From: Bradymonas sediminis
GTDB taxonomy: Bacteria; Myxococcota_A; Bradymonadia; Bradymonadales; Bradymonadaceae
Length of the DNA: 64,000 nt
Assembly (NCBI RefSeq): GCF_003258315.1
Contig: NZ_CP030032.1
Span: 472,001 to 536,000 of the forward strand
Direction: 5' to 3'
Position 1 is the first letter of the stretch, and each line of letters opens with the position of its first letter. This document shows, one piece after another, positions 3,395 through 12,778 of this stretch. Position numbers and translations under genes: made by a program. The notes under the pieces were generated by a model. It worked only from the letters and a program-made list of their open reading frames with translations. It was not told the DNA's origin and did not search any database.

Positions 3395-3410
3395 CCGCAA
3401 CCGGTGATGC

Positions 3411-3590
3411 CACGTCCGCCGCCCAAGCCACGACCGCCACCCAAGCCACGACCGCCGCCCAAGCCACGAGCGCCGCCCAAGCCACGAGCGCCGTCCAAGC
3501 CACGAGCGCCGCCCAAGCCACGACCGCCGCCCAAGCCACGAGCGCCGCCCAAGCCACGACCGCCGCCCAAGCCCCGACCCCCGCCGAAGG
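3411..3590 (+). repeat. 18-bp tandem array, about 10 units
   Basis: Nine full units of 18 bp (consensus CACGACCGCCGCCCAAGC, with C/G alternating at the sixth base) run 3411-3572, and a degenerate tenth reaches 3590. The array starts 17 bases after the stop of the upstream gene. The period is a multiple of three and the array has no stops in several frames, so it produces long meaningless open frames on both strands (PPPKPR, AAQATS, GGARGL). None has a ribosome site or a non-repeat domain, so it is called non-coding. Confidence 0.85.
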
Positions 3591-3631
3591 CTACGGCCGC
3601 CAACCCTGGCGGGATTGGCGCCCTGCGCCCA

Positions 3632-3808: not shown

Positions 3809-3846
3809 GGGTCGTAGCGTTTTTTGCGTAGGCCTCGGCGGCGGTC

Positions 3847-4008
3847 GATGATGTGATGGCGGTCGATGACTCGATGGCGGTCGATGACACAACGGCGACC
3901 GATGACGCGACGGCGACCGATGACACAACGGCGACCGATGACGCGACGGCGACCGATGACACCACGCCGGTCGAAGACACCACGACACTCAATGACCCAA
4001 CCACGCTC
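3847..4008 (+). repeat. second 18-bp tandem array, 9 units
   Basis: Nine 18-bp units with a different sequence from the first array (consensus GATGACACAACGGCGACC, alternating with GATGACGCGACGGCGACC). The first two units carry TGATGGCGGTC variants and the last two are degraded. On the plus strand it reads as VDDTTATDDATATDD-like residues, but the frame has no ribosome site and no domain. It ends about 120 bp before the GHKL ATPase start. Together with the array at 3411 and the inverted pair it fills the gap 3395-4129. Confidence 0.82.
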
Positions 4009-4129: not shown

Positions 4130-5854
4130 ATGCCCGTGAGCCAGAAAAATACCGGCCTTATCGAAAACCTGGTGACCCAATTTAGCTCTCCGCTGGATTG
4201 CTTCCGCGAGCTGGCCCAGAACGCCATGGACGCCGGCAGCCAGGTGGTCGAGGTGTGGAGCGAGTTTATCCCCGGCGACGATTATATCGGCACCATCGCT
4301 TTGCACGTCGATGATTTTGGCGAGGGGATGGATGAGCATATTATCGACACTTATTTGACCCAATTATTCTCGTCGGCCAAAGAGGACGACCTGACCAAGA
4401 TTGGCAAATTTGGCATCGGCTTTGTGTCGGTCTTCGCGCTCGAGCCGCGCGCCGTGTTGGTGCAAACCGGGCGCGGCGGCGAGTATTGGGAGGTGCTCTT
4501 TCACGAGGATCGCACCTTCACCAAGACCCGGGTGCAGATGCCGGTGGAGGGCACCCAGATCACCCTTTTTCTGGCCGGCGACATCCAGCGCTACAATGAA
4601 TTGGTGCAGGGGACGCGGGAGCGGCTCAAATTCTGGTGCGCGCACTCCGAGACCGAGATCACCTTCGAGGACCGCAGCCAGAACACCGACGCCTTCGCCG
4701 AGCCCGAGCGGATCAACCAGCCCTTTGGGGTCGAGGGGAGCTGCGTCACCCGGGTCGAGCACCAGGGGACCGAGATCGTGTGCGCCTACCAGCGCCGCCC
4801 GTCTTACGGGTTCTATAACGCGGGGCTGACCCTGGCGTACTCTCAGATCGGCGAGGACCTGCTCGGCGCGCGCGCCGCGCGGTTTCGCCATATCGGCTTC
4901 AAGATCAAGTCGCGCTATCTGGAGCATACCCTGAGCCGCGACACCATCATGCGCGACGCCAACTACGATAAGGCTATGCGCCTGCTCGAGGACGCGGTAA
5001 ACCAGGACCTCTTCGGGGCGCTGGTCGCCCAGCTCGAGTCGTTGGTGGCCGAGGATGGCTGGGCCTTCGAGCAAATGCAGGCCTACGGCGAGCTGTGCAA
5101 TTATCTGGCCCGGGAGCCCGCTGAATTGCTCAAATCCATCGGCGGGCGGCGCGTGATCCGCGGGCTCAACGGCTCCGCCCTGTCGCTCGACGAGCTCTAC
5201 GACGCCTGGGCCGACAGCGGGCGCGTGCTGGTGAGCGAGCAGCCCTCGGAGCTATGCGCGGCCCTGGAGCGCGCCGGCAGCCTGGTGGTGTATGGGCGAG
5301 GCGAGGGGGGGACGGCGGCGGCATCCCCGCTGGACGCGGTCAACCGGCTGGTGGATCGATTCGTGCGGCTGCGCTACCGCGACACGCTGGGCTCCAAGAT
5401 CCGCAGCGCGCTTAAGGTCTTCGGGGTCTCCAACGCCACGCCCAGCGTGCTCGTCGCCCCCGAGGATATCTATTTGCCCGTGGTCCTGGACGCCTCGCCG
5501 CCCGAGGTGGTGCGCGGGTTAATCGCGCACGCGTCGCGGATTCTGCGCGACGCAGGCGCCGGATACCGGCGCATGACCACCTGCCAGATCGGGTGGAGCG
5601 CGGGGGATGAGCAGCTCTTCGTGGTGGGCAATAAGCTCAGCTCATTTATGGCGCGCCCGCCGGTCGGCGCCGCGCGGGGCACGCGCAGCCTGGAGGCCGC
5701 GGTCAACCGCGATCACCCCCACTTCACCTATCTGCTCGAGGTCTACCAAAGCCAACCCGAGCTCGCCGCTTATTGCCTGGCCAAGAGTTTGTTGCTCAGC
5801 CAGGACCGCCTGCCGAGCTGTGATATGTCCATGATCGAGGCGGCTCAGGCCTAG
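4130..5854 (+). CDS. Hsp90-like GHKL ATPase with intact ATP site
   Basis: 574 residues. The N-terminal domain has the three Bergerat-fold boxes: N-box ELAQNAMDAG (E27, N31, D34), G1 box DDFGEGM (D62, G64, G66) and G2 box GKFGIGFVS (residues 92-100). The last resembles the Hsp90/HtpG form IGQFGVGFYS. Residues about 100-240 look like the following S5-type transducer region. The C-terminal 330 residues match nothing I know, and the protein is shorter than HtpG (about 630). There is no signal peptide, so it is cytosolic. It sits 63 bp before a much larger gene whose N-terminus is a degraded version of the same fold, which suggests an active/inactive ATPase pair. The ribosome site is weak. The substrate is unknown. 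Confidence 0.82.
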   Translation: MPVSQKNTGLIENLVTQFSSPLDCFRELAQNAMDAGSQVVEVWSEFIPGDDYIGTIALHVDDFGEGMDEHIIDTYLTQLFSSAKEDDLTKIGKFGIGFVSVFALEPRAVLVQTGRGGEYWEVLFHEDRTFTKTRVQMPVEGTQITLFLAGDIQRYNELVQGTRERLKFWCAHSETEITFEDRSQNTDAFAEPERINQPFGVEGSCVTRVEHQGTEIVCAYQRRPSYGFYNAGLTLAYSQIGEDLLGARAARFRHIGFKIKSRYLEHTLSRDTIMRDANYDKAMRLLEDAVNQDLFGALVAQLESLVAEDGWAFEQMQAYGELCNYLAREPAELLKSIGGRRVIRGLNGSALSLDELYDAWADSGRVLVSEQPSELCAALERAGSLVVYGRGEGGTAAASPLDAVNRLVDRFVRLRYRDTLGSKIRSALKVFGVSNATPSVLVAPEDIYLPVVLDASPPEVVRGLIAHASRILRDAGAGYRRMTTCQIGWSAGDEQLFVVGNKLSSFMARPPVGAARGTRSLEAAVNRDHPHFTYLLEVYQSQPELAAYCLAKSLLLSQDRLPSCDMSMIEAAQA

Positions 5855-5917
5855 TGGCTGCGCCCTCAATTGTTGCTCAAATACCTCAGCGCTACCCCTC
5901 TGAAATCCGTGGTTCCT

Positions 5918-8900
5918 ATGTCTAATATCGATGCGATTATCGCCCGTAGTCGGCAGGCTGGTGAGTTTAGCGAGCGCAAGAGCTTCCAGGTCTCGCGGGA
6001 GCGCGCCATCCGAAAGATGCGCGAATTTGCGCTGGCAGACCCGCATTATTATGTGCTCGAGCTCATCCAGGCGGCCATCGCCAGCGGGGCGACCCACGTC
6101 GATATGCAGATCGACGACGACACCTTTATCCTCTCCTATGTGGGCGGCGGGTTTAGCGAAGGCGAGCTCACGGCGCTCTTCGATTTCCTCTTCGCGGCCA
6201 AATCCGATGTCTCCACCGGCGCCATTCGCCAGCTCGCCCTTGGGGTCAACGCGCTGATGCGTTTTGAGCCCGACCAGATCATCCTGGAGTCCGGCGACGG
6301 CACCCTGGCCGGCACGACTCGCGTCGAGATCAACCCGGGCCGGGACCTGGTCGAAGTGGGCACGCCCGAGGCGGCGCTGAACGGGTCCTTTCTGCGCGCG
6401 CAGGGCCTTCGCCGGCGCAAGGTGCGCGGGCAGAGCTCGCTTATCGAGACTCCGTATGGCCCGCGCGAATGCTCGGCCATTGAGGAGCGTTGCCTGGCCG
6501 CGCCGGTGCCCATCCTGGTCAACTCCCACCCGGTCTTTGGCTATACAAGCATCCGCAGCCCGCGGCTGATCGGGTACGACGACGTCATCAAATTCGACGA
6601 GGGCGAGCTGTACGGGAGCATCGGCGTGGCGCGCCAGGTGCATAACCAGGTCTTCAAATTGCTCACCTGGGGGGTGTGGGTGGAGTCGGTGCACTTCCCG
6701 CTGGTCGAGGGAAAAGCCTACGGCGGAATCGTGACCTACAATCACCTCAATAAGACCGCCGACCACTCCGCGATCGTCCAGGATAAGCGCCTGAGCGACC
6801 TGTGGGCGCAGCTGCGCACCTACGCCCATATGGCGGCGAGCGACGGGGCGCGCGGCGAGGGCTTTCGGCTTAAATTTTTGGGCGGCGACACGCTTGAACC
6901 CCGCCATATTCGCCTGGTCCTCGACGCCCACTCCTGCCTGCTCGTGGTCGAGCCTAGCGTCGAGGCGGACACCCTCGCCGGGCTGCGCGCGTTGCGCATC
7001 GGCCAGGCGTTGAGCGCGCCGGTGTTTAGCGCGTCAGCGGCGGATGGCCAGATCCTCGAGGACCTGGCCGGCCCAAATATCCGGGTGATTCGCTTCGAGG
7101 ACTTAAAGGAGAGCGACGAGGCGATCTTTAACCAGGCGCTCGTCACCCCGCCCGAGCGCCCCTGGCTCCTGGGCGTGCGTGAGATGCCCGCGATGCGCGC
7201 CGGGGTGCTGGCCGCGCAGCTAAAAGAGGCGGCGTTTGCGGCCCAATTGCAGCGGGCTGAGGGCGAGCAGGACGGCGAAGACGCGCCCGGGCAGGGACGC
7301 CTTTTGGAGCGACTGGGCGGCGCGCGCAGCCAGTATAATGTGCGGATTTATACGCCCATGCGATTGCCCCGCGCCGCGCGCTCGGGCGGCGCGGACGGGA
7401 GCGCGCTGGGCGTCTGGGTGCGGGTGGTCGCCCTGGAGCGTGTCGTGTGGGAGGGCGCGGTGGAGAATCCCTACGCCGGGCATTTTATCGAGATCGACGC
7501 GCCCGTAGATCTGCCCAGCGACCTGCTCGCCGCCAACCCCTTCGACCCCTCTCAGGTGCTGGCCGAGTCCATCGCCCGCGCGATCGTGGCGGGCGCCCAA
7601 AAAAGCCTCGAGGAGACCAGCGCGCAGGCGCTTGAGCAGCTCAGCCACGCCCCGACGCTGCCGAATACCGCCGGGGCCTATATCGCGCTCGCCGCGCTGC
7701 TGCGCGACTCGACGATGCAAATCCGCGCCGGCCAGAATGCTCAGGGCGCCGCGATTCGATTCGACCTTCGCGGCGCATCCAAGCAGCATAACCTCGGCGA
7801 GCTCGAGCTCTTTTCGACCCTGGATGGCCGCACCATAAACCTGCGCGAGCTCGAGTCCATCATGGCCCACACCGGCGGGCTTGTTTACGGGACGGTGCCC
7901 GAAGTGCCGGCGAACCTCGACGGCCTGGACCAAAGCCGCATTCTGGCGCTCGACCCGCGCAGCGAGGCGCTGCTGGTCGAGCTGGTCGGCCACGGCGCCT
8001 ATATCCGGGTCGACGCGCGCGAGCGCCTGGCCCGGTCTTCGGACCGGCGCTGGGAGGTGCGCGACCTGGCTTTTGGCCTGCGCGCATACCCCAACGCGCC
8101 GCTATTGGTTGAGCCGGCGCCGGGCTCCAGTGGCGAGGCCTCGGGGGCTGCGCTGCCCGACGAGGCGGTGATTAAGGAATTGGTCCAGGCGCTATACCGA
8201 ACGTTGGTGGACGGCCTCGGCGATCCGCGACGCGAAGAGGCCGAAGAGGCCCGCCGACAGGCCGCGCGCCACCTTCGCCACTTCGTCTGCTGGCGCCGCC
8301 TATATCAACCCCACGCCCCGACCTACGGCGTCGAGCAGCTCGGGCTCTTCTGGGATGAGCAATTTCGCGAGGTCTCCCTTGCGCAAATTCTTCAGGGATT
8401 TCAGCGCTTTGGGAGGATAGTGATGCTCGACGGGCGCGTCTCAGAGAACCCTCAGGCGCCGGGGAGCGCCGACCCGAATCATGTGCCGCGCGCGCTGATG
8501 CTCAACCCCTGGTCTTTCCGATTATTGAGGCCGCTGGGGACGCTCGTCGGGGCGTTTGAGGCGGGAGAAGAGGGCGCGGAAAGCGGGCCCATCCCCCAGG
8601 ATTGGAGCAATCGCGCTGCCATGGTCGCCATCCGTGAGCTCGATACCCGGTATTATAAGGGGCGGATTGGCCTGCCGAAGGCGTCCGTCGAGGCGCCGAA
8701 TATACGGGTGATTTCGGTCGACAAGCGCCGCGTCGCCCTGCTGCGCCAGTCGAGCATCGAGTTTGGCCTGGTGGGCGTGGTCGAGCTCAAGCAGCCGTCC
8801 GATGACTGGGGGGAGACGCTCAAAAAACTCGACGCCGCATTGCGCGCAGAGAGCACCGCGCTGCTCAGCGATATGCTCGCCAGGCTCGCCGGGTTTGAGG

Positions 8901-9769
8901 ACTCCGCGCAGCTTTTGGTCGCCCTGGAGGTGCTGCTTGGATTTGCCGCCCGGCATTTGAAATTCGCACAGGCGCTCCAGGGGCCGATGCGCCCGATCTT
9001 CGTCGGTACGCCCCCCGAGCAGGAGTTGGCGCGTCGTGTCCTGGAGGCGCCGGTCTTCGCCACGCGCCATCGCCTACCGGTTGGCGCCATGAACTTTCTT
9101 CGCCAGGCATTGATTGAGCGCTACCGGGGCCAAAGGCTTGCCCCGGCCTCGCGTCTGGAGTTGCGCGAGGACGCCCCGGAAGTGCTCGCACGCTGGCTTG
9201 AGCGTCTGGTGGGGCGCATCCATGCGATGTCTCGGCGCCCGCAGCCGACTTCGACACCGTCTGCGCCGGCACCGCCGACGCCGTCTGCGCCGGCACCGCC
9301 GACGCCGTCTGCGCCAGCCGGCGGGCACCAACTCGCTGCGGCACCGCTGGCGCGCCGACTCGAGCGTTTGCTGGCTCAATTTCGCCCGGACTCCCTGGCC
9401 GAATCCCAGGCTCAGGAGCAAGCCGGCCAGGCGGGCGATCACCAGACGCGCATCGTTATCTTTGACTTCGATGGCCCGGCGCCGCAGGGCATTTTCCCGG
9501 CTGCGGTCAATTCGCAGATATATTTGCGCCAAAATGATGAGCCGTTTTTCTATATCGGCCACCAACCGCCCTATCTGCTGATTAACCAGAATAGCCCGGT
9601 CGTGCAGCGCGCGCTCGAGGCCGTCCCCGGCGACGATACCCCAGTGGCCTGGCTGCTATTAGCCGTCTACGCCCATATCAATTACCTCCTCACTCCGGTG
9701 ACCAACGACCACGAGTTTGGGTTCCAACGCCGCGTCCTCGACGCGCTGCGGGCCGGGGAGTTGCGTTGA
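5918..9769 (+). CDS. giant pseudo-GHKL protein, partner of the 4130 ATPase
   Basis: 1283 residues from ATG 5918. An upstream TTG at 5870 would add 16 residues but looks less likely. Residues about 45-115 align with the GHKL fold: ELIQAAIASGATHVDM has the shape of an N-box, but the metal-binding Asn and the Asp are Ala. The G1 position reads SYVGGGFS without its Asp, and the G2 position reads RQLALGVNALM. ATP hydrolysis is therefore unlikely. The middle is long, hydrophilic and unrecognised. Residues about 1108-1135 are a Pro/Ala/Ser/Thr linker built from 24-bp DNA repeats (9257-9316), followed by a C-terminal domain of about 150 residues. It ends one base before the convergent gene at 9771. 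Function unknown; regulation of the upstream ATPase is an inference. Confidence 0.78.
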   Translation: MSNIDAIIARSRQAGEFSERKSFQVSRERAIRKMREFALADPHYYVLELIQAAIASGATHVDMQIDDDTFILSYVGGGFSEGELTALFDFLFAAKSDVSTGAIRQLALGVNALMRFEPDQIILESGDGTLAGTTRVEINPGRDLVEVGTPEAALNGSFLRAQGLRRRKVRGQSSLIETPYGPRECSAIEERCLAAPVPILVNSHPVFGYTSIRSPRLIGYDDVIKFDEGELYGSIGVARQVHNQVFKLLTWGVWVESVHFPLVEGKAYGGIVTYNHLNKTADHSAIVQDKRLSDLWAQLRTYAHMAASDGARGEGFRLKFLGGDTLEPRHIRLVLDAHSCLLVVEPSVEADTLAGLRALRIGQALSAPVFSASAADGQILEDLAGPNIRVIRFEDLKESDEAIFNQALVTPPERPWLLGVREMPAMRAGVLAAQLKEAAFAAQLQRAEGEQDGEDAPGQGRLLERLGGARSQYNVRIYTPMRLPRAARSGGADGSALGVWVRVVALERVVWEGAVENPYAGHFIEIDAPVDLPSDLLAANPFDPSQVLAESIARAIVAGAQKSLEETSAQALEQLSHAPTLPNTAGAYIALAALLRDSTMQIRAGQNAQGAAIRFDLRGASKQHNLGELELFSTLDGRTINLRELESIMAHTGGLVYGTVPEVPANLDGLDQSRILALDPRSEALLVELVGHGAYIRVDARERLARSSDRRWEVRDLAFGLRAYPNAPLLVEPAPGSSGEASGAALPDEAVIKELVQALYRTLVDGLGDPRREEAEEARRQAARHLRHFVCWRRLYQPHAPTYGVEQLGLFWDEQFREVSLAQILQGFQRFGRIVMLDGRVSENPQAPGSADPNHVPRALMLNPWSFRLLRPLGTLVGAFEAGEEGAESGPIPQDWSNRAAMVAIRELDTRYYKGRIGLPKASVEAPNIRVISVDKRRVALLRQSSIEFGLVGVVELKQPSDDWGETLKKLDAALRAESTALLSDMLARLAGFEDSAQLLVALEVLLGFAARHLKFAQALQGPMRPIFVGTPPEQELARRVLEAPVFATRHRLPVGAMNFLRQALIERYRGQRLAPASRLELREDAPEVLARWLERLVGRIHAMSRRPQPTSTPSAPAPPTPSAPAPPTPSAPAGGHQLAAAPLARRLERLLAQFRPDSLAESQAQEQAGQAGDHQTRIVIFDFDGPAPQGIFPAAVNSQIYLRQNDEPFFYIGHQPPYLLINQNSPVVQRALEAVPGDDTPVAWLLLAVYAHINYLLTPVTNDHEFGFQRRVLDALRAGELR

Positions 9770-12566: not shown

Positions 12567-12681
12567 GCGCCCAAAAGAACGACCCCAGCGGGCTCGCCCC
12601 GCTGGTGAGCGAGATTGCCGGCCAGAAGCGGCGCCCAAAAGAACGACCCCAGCGGGCTCGCCCCGCTGGTGAGCGAGATTG
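12567..12681. repeat. 51-bp direct repeat, two copies containing a hairpin
   Basis: The same 51 bases occur at 12567-12617 and 12631-12681, separated by 13 bp. Each copy contains the palindrome AGCGGG-CTCG-CCCGCT. The repeats lie in the 371-bp gap between the zinc-ribbon operon and DNA polymerase IV, where no gene is supported. Confidence 0.9.
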
Positions 12682-12693
12682 ATAGCCAGTGGC

Positions 12694-12778
12694 GCGTCGA
12701 GTTGGCGTGGCGTGACGTTTTGTAACGCATCGAGTTGGCGTGGCGTGGTGTTTTGTGGCGTATCGGGTTGGCGGGGCG
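12694..12778. repeat. 33-bp tandem repeat, 2.6 copies
   Basis: Units at 12694-12726 and 12727-12759, with a partial third at 12760-12778, share the core CGAGTTGGCGTGGCGTG. The array directly follows the 51-bp repeats. The rest of the gap to 12840 holds a short hairpin (AGCCGG-GCAAG-CCGGCT near 12802-12818) and no gene. Confidence 0.85.

Follow-up and report, generated by a model that had tools for sequence, protein, structure and literature searches.

Gene D lies in the window, by which we mean the whole stretch of 64,000 nucleotides of Bradymonas sediminis DNA that was analysed, directly downstream of gene I. From the sequences and from structural models, we put at roughly 60% the probability that gene D encodes a pseudo-ATPase of HSP90-like architecture that serves as a dedicated noncatalytic partner of the gene I product in an HSP90-like heteromer. 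On this view, gene D would resemble an elongated HSP90 whose ATP site is dead, and gene I a compact, live one. The positions of both genes, their parts, and two neighboring genes are collected in Table 1.

Table 1. Features of the gene I and gene D region (window positions; residue numbers refer to the gene D product unless stated).
Feature	Position	Strand	Description
P0004	1221..2384	+	Conserved helical / coiled-coil-like protein; overlaps P0003 start by four bases; same operon in several relatives
P0003	2381..3394	+	Conserved protein, no known family; same operon in several relatives
Gene I (P0002)	4130..5854	+	574 aa; intact boxes ELAQNAMDAG, DDFGEGM, GKFGIGF and middle-domain Arg
Gene D (P0001)	5918..9769	+	1283-aa pseudo-GHKL / HSP90-like protein
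GHKL N-terminal domain and HSP90-type middle domain, residues 4-310	5927..6847	+	AlphaFold2 model
Degenerate N-box ELIQAAIASGATHVDM, residues 48-63	6059..6106	+	Glu48 kept, Asn to Ala52, Asp to Ala55
Degenerate G1 box SYVGGGFS, residues 73-80	6134..6157	+	Asp to Tyr74
Degenerate G2 box RQLALGVNALM, residues 104-114	6227..6259	+	First Gly to Arg104, second to Ala107, third kept (109)
KTADHSAIVQD loop, site of HSP90 Arg380-type residue	6752..6784	+	Arg to His
Tandem middle-domain-like modules, residues ~316-1100	6863..9217	+	hhalign, models
Final HSP90-middle-domain-like module, residues ~891-1102	8588..9223	+	1y6z match
Pro-rich linker before the C-terminal domain	9252..9315	+	Encoded by 24-bp repeats, 2.7 copies
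C-terminal domain, residues ~1136-1279	9323..9754	+	Resembles HSP90/HtpG dimerisation domain

Fold, domain layout, and conservation of gene D

The gene D frame starts at the ATG at 5918 and not at the TTG at 5870 chosen by the ORF lister, M1 being near-invariant among 24 orthologues. An AlphaFold2 model of residues 1 to 1108 had a mean pLDDT of 81.9, with values mostly of 85 to 92 across the GHKL and middle part. Superposition with VIA-align of residues 4 to 310 on residues 73-430 of TRAP1, its N-terminal and middle domains, aligned 273 residues at a Z score of 17.0 and an rmsd of 4.4; the Z scores were 16.8 with HtpG and 16.4 with MORC2. The GHKL-like fold that the initial annotation had proposed from the letters is therefore borne out by the model, which has a Bergerat-type alpha/beta ATP domain followed by a transducer/middle domain, as defines GHKL proteins at the level of fold. 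Matches to the gene D fold among viral proteins (RIIA proteins, topoisomerases, and HSP90s) were general GHKL matches.

Sequence comparisons also link gene D to its neighbor. Profile-profile comparison of the D family (66 rows) with the I family (47 rows) gave an E value of 8.5e-16 over 261 columns spanning the N-domain and middle domain, and a BLASTP alignment of gene D with the adjacent gene I, at E 0.034 for this one comparison, covered precisely the three ATP-site boxes. In shuffles of gene D residues 1 to 330, an N-box-like pattern was reached 5 times in 2000. Pfam found no family in gene D at E 1, and the NCBIfam sacsin-type ATP domain (NF047352) scored only E 0.12, at residues 45 to 97 over the N-box.

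The region beyond residue 310 is largely repetitive. With hhalign, residues 625 to 705 matched residues 803 to 891 (E 4e-6), and weaker copies of this alpha/beta module were seen near residues 316 to 360 and 1030 to 1060. A second model, of residues 465 to 1283 (pLDDT 79), retrieved HSP90 middle and C-terminal domains from the PDB (Foldseek E 2.5e-4). Its middle-like and dimerisation-like domains at the C-terminal end matched with borderline Z scores of 7.6 to 8.6: residues ~891 to 1102 aligned with 1y6z, an HSP90 middle domain, at a borderline Z of 8.3 (rmsd 5.7, 178 aligned), and residues ~1136 to 1276, in the C-terminal domain, aligned with 1sf8 (HtpG) at an equally borderline Z of 7.6 (rmsd 4.3, 98 of 120 residues aligned). 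The order of the domains is that of HSP90, as far as borderline Z scores at the C-terminal end allow, and it is because the middle-like repeats and the C-terminal matches follow this order that gene D looks like a stretched HSP90. A conserved C-terminal motif, HINxxLxxVTNxHExxFQ, was considered as a metal site or enzyme and dropped, since the model puts it in the HtpG-C-terminal-like domain.

Relatives of D were found in 23 of 112 genomes across the phylum. Within the window's order they occur in 16 of 26 genomes, all belonging to the window's family, and a further set comes from species-level genomes, in which 24 contig loci were collected; Plesiocystis pacifica, Enhygromyxa salina, and Paraliomyxa miuraensis are among these species. 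An alignment was needed as the query, as single-sequence scans with P0001 of genome contigs, viral contigs, plasmids, and phages returned no relative. No Pfam family was common to the 24 D members scanned, among which Pfam does not recognise the D family consistently. This absence would fit a decaying pseudogene product or a chance resemblance to GHKL proteins, an explanation to which we assign a negligible probability and which is refuted by the fold match (Z 17) and by dN/dS values well below 1, and which is also at odds with conservation across the phylum. Among close relatives, dN/dS was 0.21 to 0.38 for the whole of D, 0.10 to 0.34 for its N-domain, and 0.19 to 0.26 for I, so D is not a decaying gene.

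Residues at the ATP site

Translation of 5918 to 9769 shows the three degraded boxes of gene D as they had been written earlier, with the metal Asn and the Asp of the N-box both replaced by Ala, the G1 Asp gone, and the G2 box altered. Two elements can be added to that account: E48, the catalytic Glu, is retained, and the middle-domain Arg, a fourth element of the ATPase, is lost as well. In HSP90, the Arg380-type residue makes contact both with the gamma-phosphate and with the catalytic Glu (PMC9880540). Gene D thus lacks the boxes that define GHKL catalysis (the Asn and Asp of the N-box, the G1 Asp, and G2 GxxGxG) and the HSP90 middle-domain catalytic Arg.

Intact boxes were not found in the orthologues either. 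In residue counts from which one shortened, misaligned N-domain (row L101) was left out, the N-box Asn, the N-box Asp, and the G1 Asp were kept in 0 of 64 D rows. The Asn position held Ala in 44 rows and Ser in 12, the Asp position Ala in 29 and Leu in 25, and the G1 Asp position Phe in 26, Tyr in 23, and Trp in 11, which makes the last aromatic in 60 of 64; other residues account for the remainder at each position. At the first G2 Gly, a basic residue stood in 57 of 64 rows and lay four residues later in 5 more, while the second G2 Gly was Ala in 62 rows and was kept in 1. The middle-domain Arg position, for which 61 rows had a letter, was His in 31, Gln in 24, and Arg in 2. The catalytic Glu was kept in 63 of the 64 D rows. 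In the I rows, by contrast, all boxes were intact and invariant (44/44), as was the middle-domain Arg (44/44), and the loop that carries this Arg reads LEHTLSRD in gene I versus KTADHS or NLSQS in D. One D gene is broken by an in-frame TAG within the N-box region (locus L123, 5339-8725).

The D rows share a replacement signature, RxLAxGxNA together with an aromatic residue for the G1 Asp. Because the lost boxes are conserved anew and the Glu is nearly always retained, we conclude that the ATP site of D was replaced by another conserved signature and not randomly eroded. D is an enzyme homologue that has lost its catalytic residues under purifying selection, which is what defines a pseudoenzyme, and the pseudo-ATPase reading of the initial annotation is well supported by the sequences and the model, on which it rests.

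Such conservation could also reflect a repurposed pocket, in which D has a different ligand, be it a peptide, a metabolite, or a nucleotide-derived signal, and acts as a sensor feeding I and not as an inert partner. The altered boxes do not drift, and Glu48, Arg104, Asn111, and Lys279-Thr280 are conserved within gene D's clade. Lys279-Thr280 is, however, not kept in the second D clade, and the exchange of the base-contacting G1 Asp for bulky aromatics and of the G2 residues for Arg and Ala looks like filling of the pocket and not remodelling; we regard a repurposed pocket as unlikely.

Some pseudoenzymes still bind nucleotide, and D might in principle be a noncanonical ATPase that still binds ATP in an unusual manner, a view with which the retained catalytic Glu agrees. 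The precedent is sacsin, in which the G1 Asp is Asn and the lid Gly is Lys, yet ATP binding has been argued (PMC9880540). In sacsin, however, the metal Asn and the catalytic Arg of the middle domain are still present (PMC9880540). D lacks both, and in addition its N-box Asp and two Gly residues of the G2 box have been lost. We consider ATP binding by D improbable, much more so than a repurposed pocket.

Gene I and the pairing of the two genes

Gene I, on the same strand immediately upstream of gene D, matched Pfam SACS and HATPase_c_3 above the cut-offs and NCBIfam P_loop_sacsin (NF047352) just under its cut-off (E 6e-13). All 37 tabulated I-D pairs lie on one strand, with I first in 32 and D first in 5, and at another 16 loci, drawn from other families in the phylum, every D adjoins an intact I gene. 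Two I genes (L083 and L084) had no D neighbor in the stretch read, and no I was seen near a few D genes (L079 and L081), others lying at contig ends. The distance matrices of D and I correlate with an r of 0.88, a value matched in 0 of 2000 permutations and partly inherited from the species tree, and the two trees run parallel even for paralogous sets inside one genome. The C-termini of D and I also match weakly (E 4.5e-5, 156 columns). Since D is kept phylum-wide right beside a related intact gene, the sequences suggest that D and I probably work together as a live/dead pair, and since the paralogue beside it is active, D likely has a partner role, in which it may regulate, as the initial annotation had proposed, scaffold, or recruit.

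The same data bear on whether D could instead be a stand-alone scaffold or structural protein, sharing an operon and regulon with I and making no contact with it. D is far longer than I and consists mostly of repeats, as such a protein might. Against this, the two genes remain neighbors across the phylum, whichever of them comes first, and the D and I trees are parallel, also for paralogous sets in one genome; we hold the scaffold explanation to be quite unlikely, somewhat more so than the repurposed pocket.

Maximum-likelihood analysis placed D and I on opposite sides of a single branch with support of 100/90, to be read with the caveat that long branches meet at the D/I split and that row L101 is a shortened artefact. 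Judging from these sequences, the ATP site appears to have been lost once, long ago, in the D family.

Some loci carry one I gene and two or three D genes in a row (L057, 2596-11556; L010, 5041-14311; L045, 5418-18353; also L054), an arrangement of one live and two or three dead genes that suggests variable stoichiometry or client specificity. Copies are numerous in some genomes. One metagenome-assembled genome of the window's family (G016; for example loci L069, L071, L072, L078, and L082) has ~21 matching places on many contigs, some intact genes being included in this number, and by its sequence represents an apparently unusual expansion of live/dead GHKL genes.

The neighbors of the pair are less constant. 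In three loci (L009, L103, and L105), P0003 and P0004 join I and D in a tight operon of four genes; in L090 and L106 they lie some kilobases off, on the opposite strand, and they were not detected near the I-D pair in Nannocystales loci; a search for a convincing family for either found none. In the window, tandem arrays of 18-bp units at 3409-3601 (10.7 copies) and 3840-4001 (7.7 copies) take up much of the 735 bp that separate P0003 from gene I, a gap not present in L009. Downstream of the studied region, at 12567-12778, a 64-bp unit in ~2 copies lies beside a 33-bp unit in 2.6 copies.

Known systems and a proposed mechanism

The best structural matches of D are HSP90, HtpG, and TRAP1, with which it shares a GHKL N-domain, a middle domain, and probably a C-terminal dimerisation domain in the same order. 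D differs from them in lacking the ATP-site residues and the middle-domain Arg, in having extra middle-domain-like repeats, and in being encoded alongside a separate active partner. HtpG and eukaryotic HSP90 are homodimers. In style, the closest well-known protein is sacsin, since sacsin and the bacterial sacsin-type proteins (NF047352), like D, hold an HSP90-like domain inside a long repetitive protein; no ubiquitin-like, DnaJ, or HEPN domain was detected in D with Pfam, however, and we do not count D as a sacsin. MORC proteins have an N-domain and transducer fold as in D (Z 16.4 to MORC2), and differ in that Pfam detects no CW domain in D. The ATP site is intact in MORC2.

A defence role for D was considered and provisionally set aside. 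Gene I matched Tiamat TmtA in PADLOC over the GHKL part only (E 3e-8) and not over the whole protein, and D matched no PADLOC model at E 1. Ten ORFs near second-clade loci had no Pfam family or belonged to ordinary metabolic or helicase families, and none of these neighbors bore a defence signature. In ternary conflict systems, inactive STAND or FtsH-type ATPases make up enzyme/pseudoenzyme sets (PMC7159879), and the likeness to D is that an inactive ATPase homologue is encoded beside other components (PMC7159879); the difference is that here the dead D is paired with its own active paralogue, I. A text search of PMC7159879 found no mention of Hsp90 or GHKL. We place D within the GHKL/HSP90-like group as a new branch of pseudo-ATPases and do not file it as HSP90, and text searches of a collection of papers found no earlier description of such a live/dead pair.

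For the dedicated noncatalytic partner that we favor, the following mechanism can be proposed from the sequences and the model. D would neither bind nor hydrolyse ATP and would form a heteromer with I, probably through the N-terminal GHKL faces, the C-terminal domains, or both. ATP binding and hydrolysis in I alone would open and close the clamp, and D would supply the second clamp face, its long repeat arm holding or recruiting the client. Glu48 may have a new partner in Arg104, which stands at the position of the first G2 Gly; this Arg would then substitute for the one missing from the middle domain and fill the pocket, and such a pairing would offer one possible reason for the conservation of the dead site.

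More tentatively, the pair may represent a natural obligate hetero-HSP90, with one ATP-competent protomer and one in which ATP binding was lost once and permanently, that is, an asymmetric clamp in much of Myxococcota whose client range was widened in some genomes when the pair was duplicated. HSP90-type clamps have been studied as dimers with an ATP site in both protomers, and the contribution of each site is debated. If our reading is true, a lineage in which the live and dead protomers are fixed as separate genes would provide a natural test of a clamp with one ATP site, and likewise of what the second protomer is for.
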